A DNA stretch of 64,000 nucleotides from Archangium gephyra (GTDB lineage: Bacteria > Myxococcota > Myxococcia > Myxococcales > Myxococcaceae), in NCBI RefSeq assembly GCF_001027285.1, contig NZ_CP011509.1, forward strand, positions 1 to 64,000, written 5' to 3'. This document shows positions 50,441 through 57,553 of the stretch, in pieces; the first letter of the stretch is position 1; each line of letters opens with the position of its first letter. Both the position numbers and the translations under genes were made by a program. Under the pieces are notes generated by a model. That model had not been told where the DNA came from. It saw only the letters and a list, made by a program, of their open reading frames with translations, and ran no database searches.

Positions 50441-50485
50441 GGCGGGTTCGACTCCCGCCAAGCCCCCTCTGGAAGTTACCCGCCG
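50441..50485. repeat. T-arm-like hairpin and repeat (copy C)
   Basis: GGCGGG / CCCGCC closes the T-loop-like TTCGACT, followed by CTCTGGAAGTTACCCGCCG, which matches copy B (45090-45105) except for one base. It overlaps the kelch stop codon. Copies B and C lie in the same orientation on either side of the five-gene effector cassette. Confidence 0.55.
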
Positions 50486-53400
50486 TTCCGCGCCGGAGAC
50501 CTGGGCCGGCGCCTGCCGAGCGACCAGAGCAGTGCCAGCAAGGCCCAGGTGGCCGGGGCGGTGGGGGTGGTGGTGCAACTCCAGCCATAATGACTCCTCT
50601 GGATGACGAACCGGTGCTGGGAGGGAGCGCTGGCATTACCCGCGGCATCCACGGCGATGGCGGAGACGGAGTGGTAGCCGAACTCCAGCGCGGTGGATGG
50701 GGTGAAGCGCCAGCTTCCCACCTCGCTCACGAAGACCGGCCCGGCATTCGCCGCATCGTCATCCAGCCACACCTTCACCGTCATACCGGGTTCCACGGTG
50801 CCGGCGATGATGGGCGTCTGGGTGTCGGCGCGGTCCCCGGGCGCGGTCACCACGGGCGCTTCCGGCGGTTGGGTGTCCACCGTGAAGCTGTATTCCGCGG
50901 AGACAGGGCTGACATTGCCCGCCGGGTCCGTCGCCTTGGCCCATACCCGGTGGAGTCCCTCACGAAGCGCCGTGCCCGGGGTGAGTGTCCAGGTCCCCGC
51001 CGCGTCCGCCACGGCCGTTTCCACCACGTCTTCACCCCACCCCACCGTCACCGTGCTGCCCGCCTCCGCCGCGCCGCCCATGACGGGCCTGGTCGTGTTG
51101 ATGAAGGGCTTGTCGGGGGCCGTCACCACGGGGGCCGCTGGCGCTTGGGTGTCCACCGTGAAGAAGTGGCTCCCGGAGTCGGGGCTGACGTTGCCTGCCT
51201 TGTCCGTGGCCGTGGCCCGGGCCCGGTGGAGTCCCTCGCGAAGCGCCGTGGAGGGGAGAAGGCTCCAGTCTCCCCTGGCCTCCGCCACGGCTGTCCCGGC
51301 CACCATCTCCGTCCCATCGTGGTCCAGCCATACCGTCACCGTGCTCCCGGGCTCCGCCCTACCCGCGAAGACGGGCATGGGGTCATTGATGAAGTCCTCC
51401 AGGTTGTTCATCACGGGAGCCCCTGGTGGCAGGGTATCCACCTCGAAGTCGCGCTTCGCGGAGTCGGGGCTGACATTGCCCACCTCATCCGTGGCTCGGG
51501 CCCAGGCCTGGTGGAGTCCCTCCGCCAGCACGGTGTCCGGGGTGAAGCTCCATTGTCCCCGTGCGTCGGCGGGCGCTGTCCCCACCGGCGACCCATCCAG
51601 CCACACCCGCACCGTGGCGCCGGGTGTCGCCGTGCCTCCGATGGCTGGCTTCCGGGTATTGACGAACGCTCCTGGCGAGTCGAGCTCAGGCGCGGACAGG
51701 GAACCATCCACGTGCACCAGCCGCCCCCCATGGATGGCGTTGGTCATCACGGAAAGGATGTAATAGCCGCTCGGCACCCTGGGCGTCCGTACCGACACTT
51801 CCGTGTCGGAGAGCCTGTCCATGGGCACCGCACGGCTCGGTGCGCCTCCCTCCACCGGGAACAGGCGGATCAGGGGAAGATTCGTGGCGGAGTTCCGCGA
51901 GTCGCCGCTGCTTGCCTCCGAGCGGCCTCGCAAGTGGCGCCCCTTGATGAGGAAGTCCTCACCCGGATGGAGCCCGGCGGAGGGGTCGATGAGGGGACGC
52001 CCTTCAGGGCGAACGGCCGGGTCTTCGTATACCTCCACACTGGCGAAGATGTAGCCCGATCTCCAGTCCCCGGTGACCAGCACCTGGCCGGAGGGCAACA
52101 GCGTCGCCGTGTGCTCCGGGCGGCTGATGCTCAGGTCGCCCGTGGGGCTCCACGTCCCCGTGAGCGGGTCGTACACCTCCGCGGTGGCGGTGTACAGGTA
52201 GAGTCCGGGGTTGGTGTAGCCGCCGGTGACCAGCACCTTGCCGGAGGTCAACAGCGTCGCCTCATGGCGGCAGCGGGCCGTGGCCAGGGTCCCCGCGGCG
52301 CTCCACGCCCCCGAGCCCGGATCGTACACCTCCGCACTGCCGCGCATCTCCATACGGCCCGTGCTGCTGTTGACGCCCACGCCGCCGGTGACCAGCACCT
52401 TGCCGGAGGGCAACAGCGTCGCCGTGTGGCTGTAGCGGGCCGTGGCCAGGTCGCCCGTGAAGCTCCACGTCCCCGTGGCCGGGTCGTACACCTCCGCGCT
52501 GGCGAGGGGGCCGCCACCATATCCGCTGGCCACCAGCACCTTGCCGGAGGTCAACAGCGTCGCCGTGTGGCTGTAGCGGGCCGTGGTCAGGCCGCCCGTG
52601 AAGCTCCACGTCCCCGTGGCCGGGTCGTACACCTCCGCGCTGGCGAGGGGGCCGCTCGCGTCAAGGCCGCCGGTGACGAGCACCTTGCCGGAGGGCAACA
52701 GCGTCACCGTGTGGCCGGAGCGGGCCGAGGCCATGCCGCTCGTGGGGCTCCACTTCCCCGTGAGCGGGTCATACACCTCCGCGCTGGCGAGGGGGCCGCT
52801 CGCGTCGAGGCCGCCGGTGACGAGCACCTTGCCGGAGGGCAACAGCGTCACCGTGTGGCCGGAGCGGGCCGAGGCCATGTCTCCCGTGGGGTTCCACTTC
52901 TCCGTACCCGGGTCGTAGACCAGCGCACGGGTGAAGGGGCTGCCCGACGAGAAACTCCTGCCTCCGGAGACCAGCACCTGGCCGGAGGGCAACAGCGTCG
53001 CCGCATGGGCAACGAGGGCCGTGTCCATCGTGCCCGTGGTGCTCCACGTCCCCGGGCCCGGGTCGTACACCACCGCCTGGGCAATGGCGGAGAACGAGCC
53101 CAAGCCTCCGGTGACCAGCACCTGACCGGAGGGCAACAGCGTGGCCGTGGGCCACGAGCGGGCCGTGGCCATGCCGCCCGCGGAGCTCCATTCCCCCGTG
53201 TCCGGGTCGTAGACCTCCGCACTGCCGAGGAGGCTCCCCAGGTTGTTACCCGCCGAGACCAGCACCTGGCCCGAGGGCAGCAGCGTCGCCATGTGGCTGA
53301 AGCGGGCCGTGGCCAGGTTGCCCGTGACGCTCCACTTCCCCGTGCCCGGGTCGTACAGCTCCGTGCTGGCGAGGGTGCCGCTCGAATTGCTGCCTCCGGT

Positions 53401-54186
53401 GACCAGCACCTGGCCCGAGGGCAACAGCGTCGCCGTATGGACGGAGCGGGCCGTGGTCATGGCCTCCAGGGGGCTCCACGCCCCCGTGAGCGGCTCGTAC
53501 AGCTCCGCGCTGGCGAGGCTCGCGCTACTGTCTCCGCTCGAGCTACTGCCTCCGGAGACCAGCACCTGGCCGGAGGGCAACAACGTCGCCGTGTGTTTGG
53601 AACGAGCCGTGGCCATGCCGCCCGTGGGGCTCCACTTCCCCGTGAGCGGGTCGTACAGCTCCGCGCTCGAGCCACCGCCTCCGGAGACCAGCACCTGGCC
53701 GGAGGTCAACAACGTCGCCGTGTGGTTGGAGCGGGCCGTGGCCAGGTTGCCCGTGGTGCTCCACTTCCCCGTGAGCGGGTCGTACAGCTCCGCGCTGGCG
53801 AGGGCGCCGCTCGAGCCAGTGCCTCCGGAGACCAGCACCTGGCCGGAGGGCAACAGCGTCGCCGTGTGGTTGGAGCGGGCCGTGGTCATGCCGCCCGTGG
53901 TGCTCCACTTCCCCGTGAGCGGATCGTACAGCTCCGCGCTGGCCGAGCTCGTGCCTCCGGAGACCAGCACCTTGCCGGAGGGCAACAGCGTCGCCGTGTG
54001 GGCGGAGCGGGCCGTGGTCATGCTGCCCGTGGTGCTCCACTGCCCACCGGCGGCCACGGCCTGGAGGGCATGGGGCCTGCTCCACTCCCGCTCCGACGCC
54101 CCCTCCCTGCCCCGCGGCACCTCGTCGCACGCCCACCACAGCAGCACCGAGGCCAGGGTCAGCACCAGCCTCGCTATGGTTTTCAT
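50476..54186 (-). CDS. Kelch-repeat and Ig-like surface lipoprotein with MYXO-CTERM-like tail
   Basis: 1236 residues. The start at 54186 gives a lipoprotein signal (VLTLASVLLWWAC). About fourteen kelch-type repeats follow, each carrying HTATLLPSGQVLVSGG, then SAELYDPLTGKW, and TGNLATARS. Together they would build one or two beta propellers. After residue about 750 come four Ig-like modules (for example PVVTAPDKPFINTTRPVMGG and then AEAGSTVTVGWGEDV). The C-terminus CTTTPTAPATWALLALLWSL then GRRRPRS is a Cys, a hydrophobic helix and an Arg cluster, as in MYXO-CTERM sorting tails. Likely anchored on the outer surface. The repeats at 52651 and 52795 are almost identical at DNA level, a recent 144-bp duplication. 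Confidence 0.85.
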   Translation of the reverse strand: MKTIARLVLTLASVLLWWACDEVPRGREGASEREWSRPHALQAVAAGGQWSTTGSMTTARSAHTATLLPSGKVLVSGGTSSASAELYDPLTGKWSTTGGMTTARSNHTATLLPSGQVLVSGGTGSSGALASAELYDPLTGKWSTTGNLATARSNHTATLLTSGQVLVSGGGGSSAELYDPLTGKWSPTGGMATARSKHTATLLPSGQVLVSGGSSSSGDSSASLASAELYEPLTGAWSPLEAMTTARSVHTATLLPSGQVLVTGGSNSSGTLASTELYDPGTGKWSVTGNLATARFSHMATLLPSGQVLVSAGNNLGSLLGSAEVYDPDTGEWSSAGGMATARSWPTATLLPSGQVLVTGGLGSFSAIAQAVVYDPGPGTWSTTGTMDTALVAHAATLLPSGQVLVSGGRSFSSGSPFTRALVYDPGTEKWNPTGDMASARSGHTVTLLPSGKVLVTGGLDASGPLASAEVYDPLTGKWSPTSGMASARSGHTVTLLPSGKVLVTGGLDASGPLASAEVYDPATGTWSFTGGLTTARYSHTATLLTSGKVLVASGYGGGPLASAEVYDPATGTWSFTGDLATARYSHTATLLPSGKVLVTGGVGVNSSTGRMEMRGSAEVYDPGSGAWSAAGTLATARCRHEATLLTSGKVLVTGGYTNPGLYLYTATAEVYDPLTGTWSPTGDLSISRPEHTATLLPSGQVLVTGDWRSGYIFASVEVYEDPAVRPEGRPLIDPSAGLHPGEDFLIKGRHLRGRSEASSGDSRNSATNLPLIRLFPVEGGAPSRAVPMDRLSDTEVSVRTPRVPSGYYILSVMTNAIHGGRLVHVDGSLSAPELDSPGAFVNTRKPAIGGTATPGATVRVWLDGSPVGTAPADARGQWSFTPDTVLAEGLHQAWARATDEVGNVSPDSAKRDFEVDTLPPGAPVMNNLEDFINDPMPVFAGRAEPGSTVTVWLDHDGTEMVAGTAVAEARGDWSLLPSTALREGLHRARATATDKAGNVSPDSGSHFFTVDTQAPAAPVVTAPDKPFINTTRPVMGGAAEAGSTVTVGWGEDVVETAVADAAGTWTLTPGTALREGLHRVWAKATDPAGNVSPVSAEYSFTVDTQPPEAPVVTAPGDRADTQTPIIAGTVEPGMTVKVWLDDDAANAGPVFVSEVGSWRFTPSTALEFGYHSVSAIAVDAAGNASAPSQHRFVIQRSHYGWSCTTTPTAPATWALLALLWSLGRRRPRSPARNGG

Positions 54187-54587
54187 CCCGATTCCTGGAG
54201 AGGATGGCATGAAGGTTCCCTTTCATGGATATGTGGTGTCACCCCAGCGGTGAGCCCCTCGGTCCCCCTCGACGAGCGAGGGTGAGCGTGAAGGGCCATG
54301 ACTTCGTTCACCTGGTGGTGCCCGCTGGTTTGCCGGGAACGCCCATGTTGCACGACCCACGGGAGGGGCGCGGTGACGGGCTTCACACCTGAAAGGGTGT
54401 CGGAGAATTCGAGTGACGCGACCCGGCACGACACGCGGCGGAAATAGAGCTTCGCGCGGTCCGGTGGGAATCGCGAGGAGAGGGTGTCGCGAAGGACGGG
54501 AGCGGTGGCGCGGTGCACGGCAGCAGAGACCCCGGCGTGGGACGCGGGCTAGAATCGGCTCGTCACTCGGCTCGCGGAGACCTCTTG
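54187..54587. other. Divergent intergenic region
   Basis: About 400 bases between the kelch gene and the GNAT gene. I see no gene, no strong hairpin and no repeat. It must carry promoters for both, but none is clear to the eye. Confidence 0.4.
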
Positions 54588-55073: not shown

Positions 55074-55973
55074 TCAGGCTTCCCCTCTGCCCCAGGCGTA
55101 GGCGCGGGCGTCACGCCAGAGGACCCGCGTTCCCTTCACCGCGGCCCGGCGCAGGAGGACGGCCGTCGCGATGAGCAGCACCCCCAGCGTGACCACCGAG
55201 CCTTCCAAGCCGTAGGCGCCGCCGGTCAGCCATTCCGGGCCGCCCAGCTGCCCGGTCAACAGACCTTCCTGGGCCGGGTGGCCCGAGACGGCAATCGACC
55301 AGACGGTGCCCAGCGTGTAGTTCCAGCCGATGTGGATGCCGATGGCGAGCCAGAGGCGGCGCGTCACGAGGTAGGCGGCCGTCAGCATCACGCCCGCCAC
55401 CCCGGTGACGGCAATGGCCAGCACGGTCGCCGAGGAGCCCGGAAGGTGAGAGAGCCCGAACAGCACGGAGGAGATCGCGAGCGCCGGCCAGGTGCCCAGC
55501 GCACGCTCGGTGATGCGGAACAGGAGGCCGCGGAACAGCAGCTCCTCCAGCACGCCGACAAACACCATTTCGCCGATCGGCACGACGAGGGCGAAGCTCC
55601 ATGGGTTCATCCGGGTGAAGTGATAGGCGCCCGTGGCGGCCAGGGCGGCGATGGCGGCCCCCACCATCACGAACCCGAGCCCCAGCCCGGCCACCACTTC
55701 GGGCAAGGCACGAGCGCCGGACGCTTCCGCGGCCTCGCGCTTTTCGGCCCGCCGCACATGAAAGCGGTACGCCAGCAGCGCCACCCCGGCGGACAGCACC
55801 TCTGGCCACACGGGCCGATATGCCTTCGCCACATACGAATGGATGATCGCCTCAGGCGTGAACGCCGCCAGCAGGAGCACGAGGGCGCCGAGGACGATGC
55901 GCGTCAGGGGTAACTGCAAGAAGCGCCGGGTCCACGGAAGGCGGGGCCCCGTCATCTGGGCTGCCGTGCTCAT
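55074..55973 (-). CDS. CPBP family intramembrane metalloprotease
   Basis: 299 residues with about eight hydrophobic helices. The family motifs are EELLFRG (Glu-Glu-x-x-x-Arg), FGLSHLPG (Phe-x-x-x-His) and a third His in IGIHIGWNY, the Abi/Rce1 zinc site. The start at 55973 overlaps the MarR stop by four bases (ATGA). In other bacteria members process prenylated proteins or confer bacteriocin self-immunity. The MarR partner implies inducible use. Confidence 0.85.
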   Translation of the reverse strand: MSTAAQMTGPRLPWTRRFLQLPLTRIVLGALVLLLAAFTPEAIIHSYVAKAYRPVWPEVLSAGVALLAYRFHVRRAEKREAAEASGARALPEVVAGLGLGFVMVGAAIAALAATGAYHFTRMNPWSFALVVPIGEMVFVGVLEELLFRGLLFRITERALGTWPALAISSVLFGLSHLPGSSATVLAIAVTGVAGVMLTAAYLVTRRLWLAIGIHIGWNYTLGTVWSIAVSGHPAQEGLLTGQLGGPEWLTGGAYGLEGSVVTLGVLLIATAVLLRRAAVKGTRVLWRDARAYAWGRGEA

Positions 55974-56476
55974 GTCGTCTTCCTCTTCCTGGTGGTGGGG
56001 GTGCCGGCCGCGTGCGCGGCCTGGGTTGCGCGTGCCTTGCGGATGCGTTCTCCGAAGGGCTCGGCTTCCAGCGCCTGGATCGCGTCGGCCAGGCATTGGG
56101 AGAGAGGGTGGGGCAGTGCGGCGTCGAGACCATCGGCGGCGGCCTTGGTGGCGGCCCAGCACTCCATCAGCCTGGGCAGCATGCGCTGACCCGCCGCGCC
56201 GAGGCGGACCACCCGCTCGCGGCCGTCCGCGCCGGGGCCGACCGTGACCAGGCCTGCCTTCTTCATCAAGGCGAGCGTCTGCGTGGCGGCCGGCTGGCTG
56301 ATGCCCGCCACTTGCGCGATGCGGCCGACCGAGGCCGAGGTCTCCTGCGCGAGCACGCGCATGACCGGCGTGTAGCGGGGCCGGTAGTCGAGGCCCGCAT
56401 CGACGTAGGCTTGCGCGACGTCGCCGTCGAGCAGTTCGAGCAGGTGCCGCAATTGGGTGCCGAGTCCTTGTTTCAC
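55970..56476 (-). CDS. MarR family transcriptional regulator
   Basis: 168 residues from a GTG at 56476. Winged helix-turn-helix: ASVGRIAQVAGISQPAATQT then LVTVGPGADGRERVVRLGAA. A helical N-terminus (VKQGLGTQLRHLLELLDGDV) and C-terminal helices form the dimer part. It ends in a Lys/Arg-rich tail. A perfect 18-bp palindrome lies nine bases upstream of the start, overlapping a TATACT -10 whose expected start point falls at the GTG itself, so the message may be leaderless. It is cotranscribed with the CPBP gene, which it should control. Confidence 0.8.
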   Translation of the reverse strand: MKQGLGTQLRHLLELLDGDVAQAYVDAGLDYRPRYTPVMRVLAQETSASVGRIAQVAGISQPAATQTLALMKKAGLVTVGPGADGRERVVRLGAAGQRMLPRLMECWAATKAAADGLDAALPHPLSQCLADAIQALEAEPFGERIRKARATQAAHAAGTPTTRKRKTT

Positions 56477-56484
56477 CGGCGCAG

Positions 56485-56502
56485 TATATAACGGGTTATA
56501 TA
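56485..56502. promoter_or_regulatory. Perfect palindromic operator at the marR / alkylation-repair divergent promoter
   Basis: TATATAACGGGTTATATA is a perfect inverted repeat with 8-bp arms and a 2-base centre. It overlaps a minus-strand TATACT (56483-56488) and a plus-strand TATAAT (56499-56504), so one bound MarR dimer would block both directions. Confidence 0.7.
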
Positions 56503-56603
56503 ATCCCTTATGTAAAAATCGGGGAGGCGGCTTCTTGTCCGCCGCGAAAGCGAACATGGCCGCCCGGGAGATCGGGTAAGAGACCGCACTCGAGGAGACT
56601 CGC

Positions 56604-57395
56604 ATGCCGAAAACGATGACGCTGTCCCAGGTCATGAAGCAGCTCGAGCAGCAGGGCGACGAGAAGGTGCGCGAGCGCTACGTGCGCGATGGCGCGGGGG
56701 ACAACGTTTTCGGCGTGCTGCTCGGCAAGATCCGTGGCCTCGCGGAGGCGCTCGGGACGAACCACGGGCTCGGCCTGGAGCTGTGGGCGACGGGCAACCA
56801 CGAGGCGCGCATCCTCGCGTGCATGCTGCTCGAGCCCACGGCGCTCACCGAGAAGGAGGCACGTGCGCTCCTCGAGCCGCTCTCGAACCCCACACTGGCC
56901 GACGAGCTCGTCGGACGCGTGCTCGTGCATGCGCCCATCGCCGAGGCGCTGCAGGTGCGGTGGATGGACAGCGGCAAGGAGCTTCTCCGCCGCGCCGGGT
57001 GGAGGCTCCTCGCCGGGCGCATCGCGCGCGGGCTCGCGAAGGACCTCGACGTCCGCGCGACGCTCACGCGCATCGAGCGTGAGTTGCCGCCCGCACCGTA
57101 CCGGGTGAAGGAGGGCATCAACTTCTGCCTCGTCTGGATCGGCCTCCACCTGCCCGCGTACACCGCGGAGGCCATCGCCATCGGCGAGCGCCTCGGCCGG
57201 TGGGACCCGCGACCCATCCCCAAGGGCTGCACGTCGAGCTACGCGCCGGAGTGGATCGCCGCGTCGCTCGCGCTGCGCCGGGGCGAGAAGACCGCGGCAC
57301 GAAAGGCGATGGAGGCCTCCGCCAAGGCGAAGGCCGCTCCGGTCAGGAAGAAGAGCGCCGGGAAGAAACCATCTGCCCCGAAGAGGGCGCGCTGA
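56604..57395 (+). CDS. DNA alkylation repair protein, AlkD/HEAT-repeat type
   Basis: 263 residues. HEAT-like helices, with the AlkD-family segments LGLELWATGNHEARILACML early, VKEGINFCLVWIG and RLGRWDPRPIPKGCTSSYAP late. It ends in a Lys-rich tail (RKKSAGKKPSAPKRAR). AlkD enzymes excise cationic alkylated bases without base flipping. The start at 56604 has GAGGAGACTC upstream. Its promoter shares the palindrome of the divergent marR. Catalytic residues cannot be confirmed by eye, so a DNA-binding homologue without glycosylase activity is possible. Confidence 0.7.
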   Translation: MPKTMTLSQVMKQLEQQGDEKVRERYVRDGAGDNVFGVLLGKIRGLAEALGTNHGLGLELWATGNHEARILACMLLEPTALTEKEARALLEPLSNPTLADELVGRVLVHAPIAEALQVRWMDSGKELLRRAGWRLLAGRIARGLAKDLDVRATLTRIERELPPAPYRVKEGINFCLVWIGLHLPAYTAEAIAIGERLGRWDPRPIPKGCTSSYAPEWIAASLALRRGEKTAARKAMEASAKAKAAPVRKKSAGKKPSAPKRAR

Positions 57396-57553
57396 CCTCG
57401 CGCCAGGCTCGGCAGGAGCCCGGCTGGGGGGACGCAACCCGCCCCCTGGGACTCCGGCCTTGAAACCCGTGGCGAGGCCCGGCAAAAGAGGTGACAGGCC
57501 CGCTCCGGGTGCATCCCCCGCCGCGCCCTTCCCGCTCACCCCTGAGGCCCCTC

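Follow-up and report, generated by a model that had tools for sequence, protein, structure and literature searches.

MarR-type autorepressors have been described in general terms as winged-helix proteins that act at a palindrome of 16–20 bp lying over the -10 element and the spacer or -35 region, with the regulator gene placed beside its likely target (PMC5401885), and the same three features are found at one locus of the window, that is, the whole stretch of 64,000 nucleotides of DNA analysed here. A MarR-type regulator with a leaderless transcript is also on record: CrtR of Corynebacterium glutamicum, which is reported to affect its own gene (PMC5401885). The regulator of the window is likewise of the MarR type and predicted to be leaderless and autoregulated, a likeness drawn at the level of the MarR fold; it differs in that CrtR controls a divergent carotenoid operon, and the TTAA-containing motif of CrtR is distinct from the operator of the window (PMC5401885). 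Unlike in the general MarR model, the likely targets of the regulator family represented in the window are genes for CPBP or S41 proteases, and its operator stands at two preferred distances from the start codon with a conserved leaderless geometry. Among HEAT-like repeat proteins of the AlkF/AlkG kind, the product of the alkD-like gene of the locus comes nearest to AlkF (3zbo), and we place this gene outside the regulatory system. Among the matches listed in a search of the open-access literature, judged by titles and the openings of abstracts and with most subscription papers outside it, there was no study of this regulator or operator, none of a MarR-CPBP or MarR-S41 pair, and none that maps leaderless transcripts in Massilia or in myxobacteria.

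We consider it very probable that the MarR-type protein of the window represses its own leaderless marR-CPBP operon through a palindrome in the promoter. Binding, repression, the signal and the true 5' end are what we infer from features legible in the DNA, namely the conservation and positions of the operator, the spacing of the -10 box, the linkage of the genes and their horizontal origin. The palindrome would be the binding site of the adjoining regulator, a dimer of which would lie across the marR-CPBP promoter, over its -10 and its spacer/-35 region; bound MarR would shut the operon off, and a signal releasing it would allow the intramembrane protease to be made on demand. Transcription would begin at the marR start codon, or one to two bases off it, and the message would carry neither leader nor Shine-Dalgarno sequence. 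Two registers 12 bp apart would be available through a common half-site, one over the -10 box and one just upstream, and any effect on alkD would follow incidentally from where that gene lies. The features of the locus are listed in Table 1.

Table 1. Features of the marR-CPBP locus and the adjoining alkD-like gene (positions in the window)
Feature	Position	Strand	Description
CPBP (Rce1-like/CAAX) intramembrane protease gene	55074..55973	-	299 aa; ATGA overlap with the marR stop
marR	55970..56476	-	MarR-type regulator, 168 aa, GTG start
marR transcription start, predicted	56476	-	G of the GTG; inferred from the -10 spacing
marR -10 box TATACT	56483..56488	-	followed by 6 nt, then the GTG at 56476
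Operator slot I	56484..56503	no strand	covers the marR -10 box; 1 mismatch to TTATATAA-N4-TTATATAA
Palindrome first noted, TATATAACGGGTTATATA	56485-56502		8+2+8 symmetry, 16/18 bases pair
Operator slot II	56496..56515	no strand	one half-site common with slot I; ends 19 nt before the GTG
Second palindrome, TTATATAATCCCTTATGTAA	56496-56515		overlaps the palindrome first noted
TATAAT	56499..56504	+	-10-like sequence on the alkD strand, within the operator
alkD-associated block	56526..57427	+	blastn 93% to L037; excludes the operator
alkD-like gene	56604..57395	+	AlkD/AlkF-like HEAT-repeat protein, 263 aa

The regulator matches PF12802 (MarR_2; E 6.7e-07, 29.8 bits against a cut-off of 27), and all 17 of the 17 sequences aligned have a MarR_2 match at E ≤0.001. 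A longer marR reading frame, from an ATG at 56635 (221 aa), was also considered; its extra part crosses the promoter and is, by eye, unmatched in the relatives inspected. The neighbouring protease matches PF02517 (E 1.5e-20, 73.7 bits against a cut-off of 22.4), and EExxxR, FxxxH and HxxxN, which we take to be the CPBP motifs, are visible in its sequence. Elsewhere in the window, a repeat protein of 1244 aa is encoded at 50476-54210, in DNA that recurs as many partial copies in the rest of the genome. Judging by its size, gene content and base composition, this genome is probably that of a myxobacterium.

The initial annotation had reported a perfect 18-bp palindrome overlapping a TATACT and a TATAAT that face opposite ways. 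Both hexamers are where it placed them and the palindrome is present, with perfect arms of 8 bp, but the central GG is unpaired. No match to it, with up to 3 mismatches allowed, arose in 100 dinucleotide shuffles of the window. In the 12.49-Mb genome TATATAACNNGTTATATA occurs a single time, at this very site, which is also the sole genome site of the looser pattern TATAA-N4-TTATA; that last count alone proves little, given that the reversed control pattern also matches once per strand. Read on the minus strand, the first palindrome and the second, overlapping one resolve into three half-sites with a 12-bp period (TTACATAAGGGA TTATATAACCCG TTATATACTGCG), and the -10 box TATACT lies within the last 12-bp unit, followed by GCGCCG and the marR GTG. 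The pattern TTATATAA-N4-TTATATAA (≤3 mismatches) has only two sites in the genome, both of them the palindromes of the window with 1 mismatch each, and its reversed control has none. The possibility of a transcribed hairpin or terminator was rejected because the palindrome is upstream of the predicted marR start; the single terminator-like site found is at 55570-55588.

Reading the DNA upstream of marR starts locus by locus, we found that the operator TTATATAAGCGCTTATATAA recurs just before the start codon, and by its sequence the window palindrome is a diverged member of it. The comparison comprised 107 loci, made up of 28 from the family to which the window belongs (the window included) and 80 GTDB loci, which are the best 80 of 386 and hence biased to close relatives, less L069, which was left out because no start codon was found in it; in 16 loci the start was moved to an in-frame ATG. 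An operator scoring at least 13/20 precedes marR in 97 of these 107 loci, the window among them, or in 97/108 if L069, where no operator was seen, is counted. At the stricter threshold of at least 14/20, the operator was found upstream in 91/107 loci and just downstream in 0/107, while shuffled upstream regions gave a mean of 0.6 and a largest value of 2 out of 107 (20 shuffles); 228,249 bases of control DNA contain 6 sites that reach 13/20. The consensus was derived from the same loci that were scored, and we therefore place the weight on the controls, that is, the downstream regions, the shuffles, the whole-genome searches and the loci in which the protease gene comes first.

These CPBP-first loci account for 7 of the 10 that have no operator before marR. 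In all seven of them the operator precedes the CPBP gene instead, 904-951 nt before marR and at 15-19/20, and thus, in sequence terms, it is the promoter of the protease-marR unit that the operator marks, whichever gene leads. In L137 and L149, CPBP is preceded, about 0.9 kb ahead of marR, by a pair of full operators with a distance of 26 and 23 bp, respectively, between them. No operator was seen within 2.5 kb upstream of marR in L075 and L130, and in L154 it lies 135 nt upstream; no CPBP gene was found nearby in any of these three. The operator looks like a real and widely conserved site for the MarR-type regulator, and the placing of a regulator site over the marR promoter in the initial annotation is supported by the comparison of the 107 loci.

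The distance between the end of the operator and the start codon clusters at two positions about 12 bp apart, with peaks at 7 and 19 nt. In slot I (36 loci, 5-10 nt before the start, 31 of them at 7-8 nt) the operator covers the -10 box. In slot II (60 loci, 15-20 nt) it stands just upstream of a -10 box that is often extended, e.g. TGCTAATAT; the commonest spacing there is 19 nt (36 loci), with 17 nt (12 loci) and other values within the same range also occurring, and a single outlying locus has its operator at 35 nt. The window contains both slots, overlapping, as its three half-sites. Its slot I takes the position of the 31 prevailing slot-I loci, and its slot II matches the family consensus at 17/20, has 1 mismatch to TTATATAA-N4-TTATATAA and aligns with the operator of Massilia arenosa. 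Where the window reads TTATATAC, M. arenosa has TGATATTC at the aligned position, so that one and the same change creates the additional half-site and abolishes the TG of the extended -10. L104, L106, L110, L111, L115 and L131 also have double sites, but weaker ones (5-6/8), in which the match is partly supplied by the -10 box itself.

Slot II fits both the consensus and the M. arenosa position, and the third half-site in the window is supplied by the -10 box itself, so it is possible, if somewhat doubtful, that only slot II is bound there and that the palindrome first noted merely reflects an AT-rich -10 box. However, this third half-site matches at 7/8, the best value among the 60 slot-II loci, and 36 loci have their operator in slot I. 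We retain autorepression with two registers as the preferred reading for the window.

The promoter itself was compared across the same 97 operator loci, with open reading frames of the same loci as controls, their starts being set at the longest ATG, which is a crude start call. Exactly 6 nt separate a TANNNT from the start codon in 67/97 operator loci vs 8/452 control ORFs, and the extended form TGnTANNNT is found at this offset in 50/97 vs 0/452. When the range of offsets is widened to 5-8 nt, the count is 73/97, against a mean of 13.8 and a maximum of 23 in shuffled sequences. Shine-Dalgarno-like motifs precede only 4/97 marR genes vs 71/265 control ORFs, and no AGGA, GGAG or GAGG lies within 20 nt of the marR GTG in the window. 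In bacteria, RNA polymerase usually begins transcription some 7 nt past the -10, and with a 6-nt spacing the transcription start would fall on the start codon itself. The marR message thus probably starts at or within 1-2 nt of its start codon and is leaderless, as the initial annotation had proposed, and the comparison between loci supports this well. In slot-I loci, the best hexamer pair, taken from nine spacings per locus, has a spacer of 16-17 nt and 6-11/12 matches to TTGACA/TATAAT; the -35-like hexamer is often TTGACA or near it, and the -10-like hexamer ends 6-8 nt before the start.

Exceptions to this geometry are L005, which has a leader and a Shine-Dalgarno-like motif, and the CPBP-first loci, in six out of seven of which a leader of ordinary form, carrying a purine-rich motif, is visible by eye, the CPBP ATG of L006 being 7 nt after the operator. 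The leaderless form, therefore, mostly goes with marR as the first gene. The window promoter is among the least typical of the set: its start codon is GTG, as in 2/97 operator loci (ATG in 95/97), it is without the TG of the extended -10 present in M. arenosa, and no convincing -35 was found at 16-18 bp from either TATACT or TATAAT, a sigma-70 consensus scan likewise finding no promoter in this region of the window. Slot II would span about -39 to -20, from where some regulators activate, and the window promoter has no good -35, yet activation of the marR-CPBP operon rather than its repression is unlikely, as in the 36 slot-I loci a regulator bound over the -10 would keep polymerase out, and many loci have a TTGACA-like -35 or an extended -10 that should need no activator.

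Under the initial annotation, one operator would also govern the divergent alkD-like gene and so link membrane proteolysis to DNA repair. The geometry of the window is compatible with this: 88 bp lie between the end of the operator and the alkD ATG, a consensus TATAAT inside the operator faces alkD, and in L005 a divergent S41 gene and marR have one intergenic region in common, so that the family may include cases of divergent control. We nevertheless judge such a link improbable. The alkD-facing TATAAT is without a -35, and alkD is near marR in 1/107 loci, the window alone; it was found near marR in 0/16 larger neighbourhoods and in 0/80 GTDB loci (best 80 of 386). Genes of the alkD-like type occur in 31/144 related genomes, the window's included, and in the 8 other genomes of the same family that have both genes, the two lie on separate contigs or are divided by about 200 kb or more. 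The block shared with L037 begins at the earliest about 10 bp beyond the operator, and the operator is absent from the upstream regions of 29 other alkD genes, each located by tblastn, which score 8-11/20 vs 17 in the window. On these grounds, namely the linkage in 1/107 loci, the separation of the two genes in the 8 other genomes, a block outside the operator and the 29 upstream regions, the repair link was rejected as a selected feature.

The alkD-like gene has a Shine-Dalgarno-like motif of its own, GAGGAG at 56592-56597. Its block (≤0.9 kb) sits elsewhere, between different flanks, in several related genomes and may be mobile. The description of the product as an AlkD-like repair protein holds as regards the domain (PF08713, DNA_alkylation; E 1.3e-15, 58.1 bits against a cut-off of 21), but the closest solved chain is AlkF 3zbo (E 1.9e-19), the one other solved chain found, the unnamed 1t06, being near-identical to it, and AlkF has no known glycosylase activity. 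The sources on AlkF describe binding to branched DNA and no detected glycosylase activity (PMC4433238, PMC8282808). From its sequence context, the gene looks like a neighbour of marR by accident of position, and the TATAAT on its strand is probably a by-product of the operator sequence, although a side effect of the operator on alkD transcription is conceivable.

Returning to autorepression of the marR-CPBP operon, the gene neighbourhoods point to proteases as the targets. Within 2.5 kb of the regulator, and counted only as far as the flanks reach (1.5 kb in L065-L074), tblastn found a CPBP gene in 68/97 and an S41 peptidase gene in 22/97 operator loci, that is, one or the other in 90/97 and neither in 7/97. 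A Pfam check of ten proteins identified S41 domains in seven, the remaining three having a beta-lactamase domain (L099), a protoglobin (L125) and CPBP (L158). The operator also stands before protease genes away from the regulator: a lone CPBP gene in G164 (L158) and a lone S41 gene in G036 (L169). In the latter, the S41 gene with its operator occupies about 1501-2938 of a 3-kb stretch in which no marR was seen, and G036 also carries a marR-CPBP pair elsewhere in its genome. In L177, from Dyella, a gene for a MarR-acetyltransferase fusion (1537-2517) has a copy of the operator with 3 mismatches 16 nt before its start, which may be due to chance, as the control pattern hits that genome once per strand.

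A scan of 13 genomes with TTATATAAGNNCTTATATAA (≤3 mismatches) matched 10, of which 8 have a single site; with the control, 4 genomes gave 1 match per strand. The only match in G036 and in G164 is the site of the lone protease gene, the marR operators of these two genomes being more diverged, and the fixed pattern, which misses such operators, therefore undercounts. Within the limit set by this pattern, the regulon looks small and protease-centred. That the switch also governs a membrane protease is supported by gene linkage and by the operators before lone protease genes; of the regulator proposed to join membrane proteolysis to DNA repair, the proteolytic half is thus supported and the repair half, with alkD beside marR in 1/107 loci, is not.

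The regulator was found in 17/144 related genomes, the window's included (protein search, E ≤1e-20), and in 26/195 genomes of a sample of the phylum (1e-18). Its GTDB kin, among the best 80 of 386, are mostly Oxalobacteraceae (Massilia, Duganella, Janthinobacterium and Rugamonas), together with Nitrospirillum, Dyella, a Caulobacter and one Luteitalea bin. Identity between the window MarR and that of M. arenosa is 83% over 149 residues (best 80 of 386) and 77% over the 159 columns of the tree, compared with at most 62% to MarRs of its own family. In a tree of 104 proteins, which left out L069, L075, L134 and L153 and carried a long-branch warning and a bootstrap not fully settled, the window MarR pairs with M. 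arenosa (100/93) inside a clade of 36 rows (98/98) in which the other rows are all Pseudomonadota, the rows of its own family lying elsewhere. The window CPBP protein, in turn, is 62% identical to that of M. arenosa and 33-41% identical to six copies in its own family. Since both proteins are nearer to M. arenosa than to their own family, the marR-CPBP pair was probably acquired horizontally, presumably from a Massilia-like bacterium. The GC profile has no sharp border around the pair, a plasmid search gave no match, and the one PADLOC hit, a match of the regulator to Csa3, is weak (E 2.7e-04). Residue C106 of the regulator is nearly invariant in 32 mostly Pseudomonadota sequences, but the S41-linked clade within the window's family lacks it; it is a possible redox sensor, and its conservation makes thiol sensing by the regulator possible.

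A plausible, if tentative, extension is that these loci form an undescribed regulon, in which a MarR subfamily would be dedicated to envelope proteolysis (CPBP and S41), its own message being leaderless and autoregulated and its operator standing at either of two preferred positions some 12 bp apart, and would have spread in part horizontally via Pseudomonadota, the window's family and at least one Acidobacteriota bin. The three fused half-sites of the window would then provide two exclusive or cooperative registers and act as a graded switch.

To our knowledge, most bacterial CPBP proteases are without a known trigger. What began as one palindrome is now a defined unit in about a hundred genomes, consisting of a regulator, its likely operator, a probable leaderless promoter and protease targets. 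With the -10 box at a fixed spacing from the start codon, leaderless initiation becomes open to direct test in these bacteria, and a dedicated regulator with a clear operator would offer a direct route to the CPBP signal and regulon.
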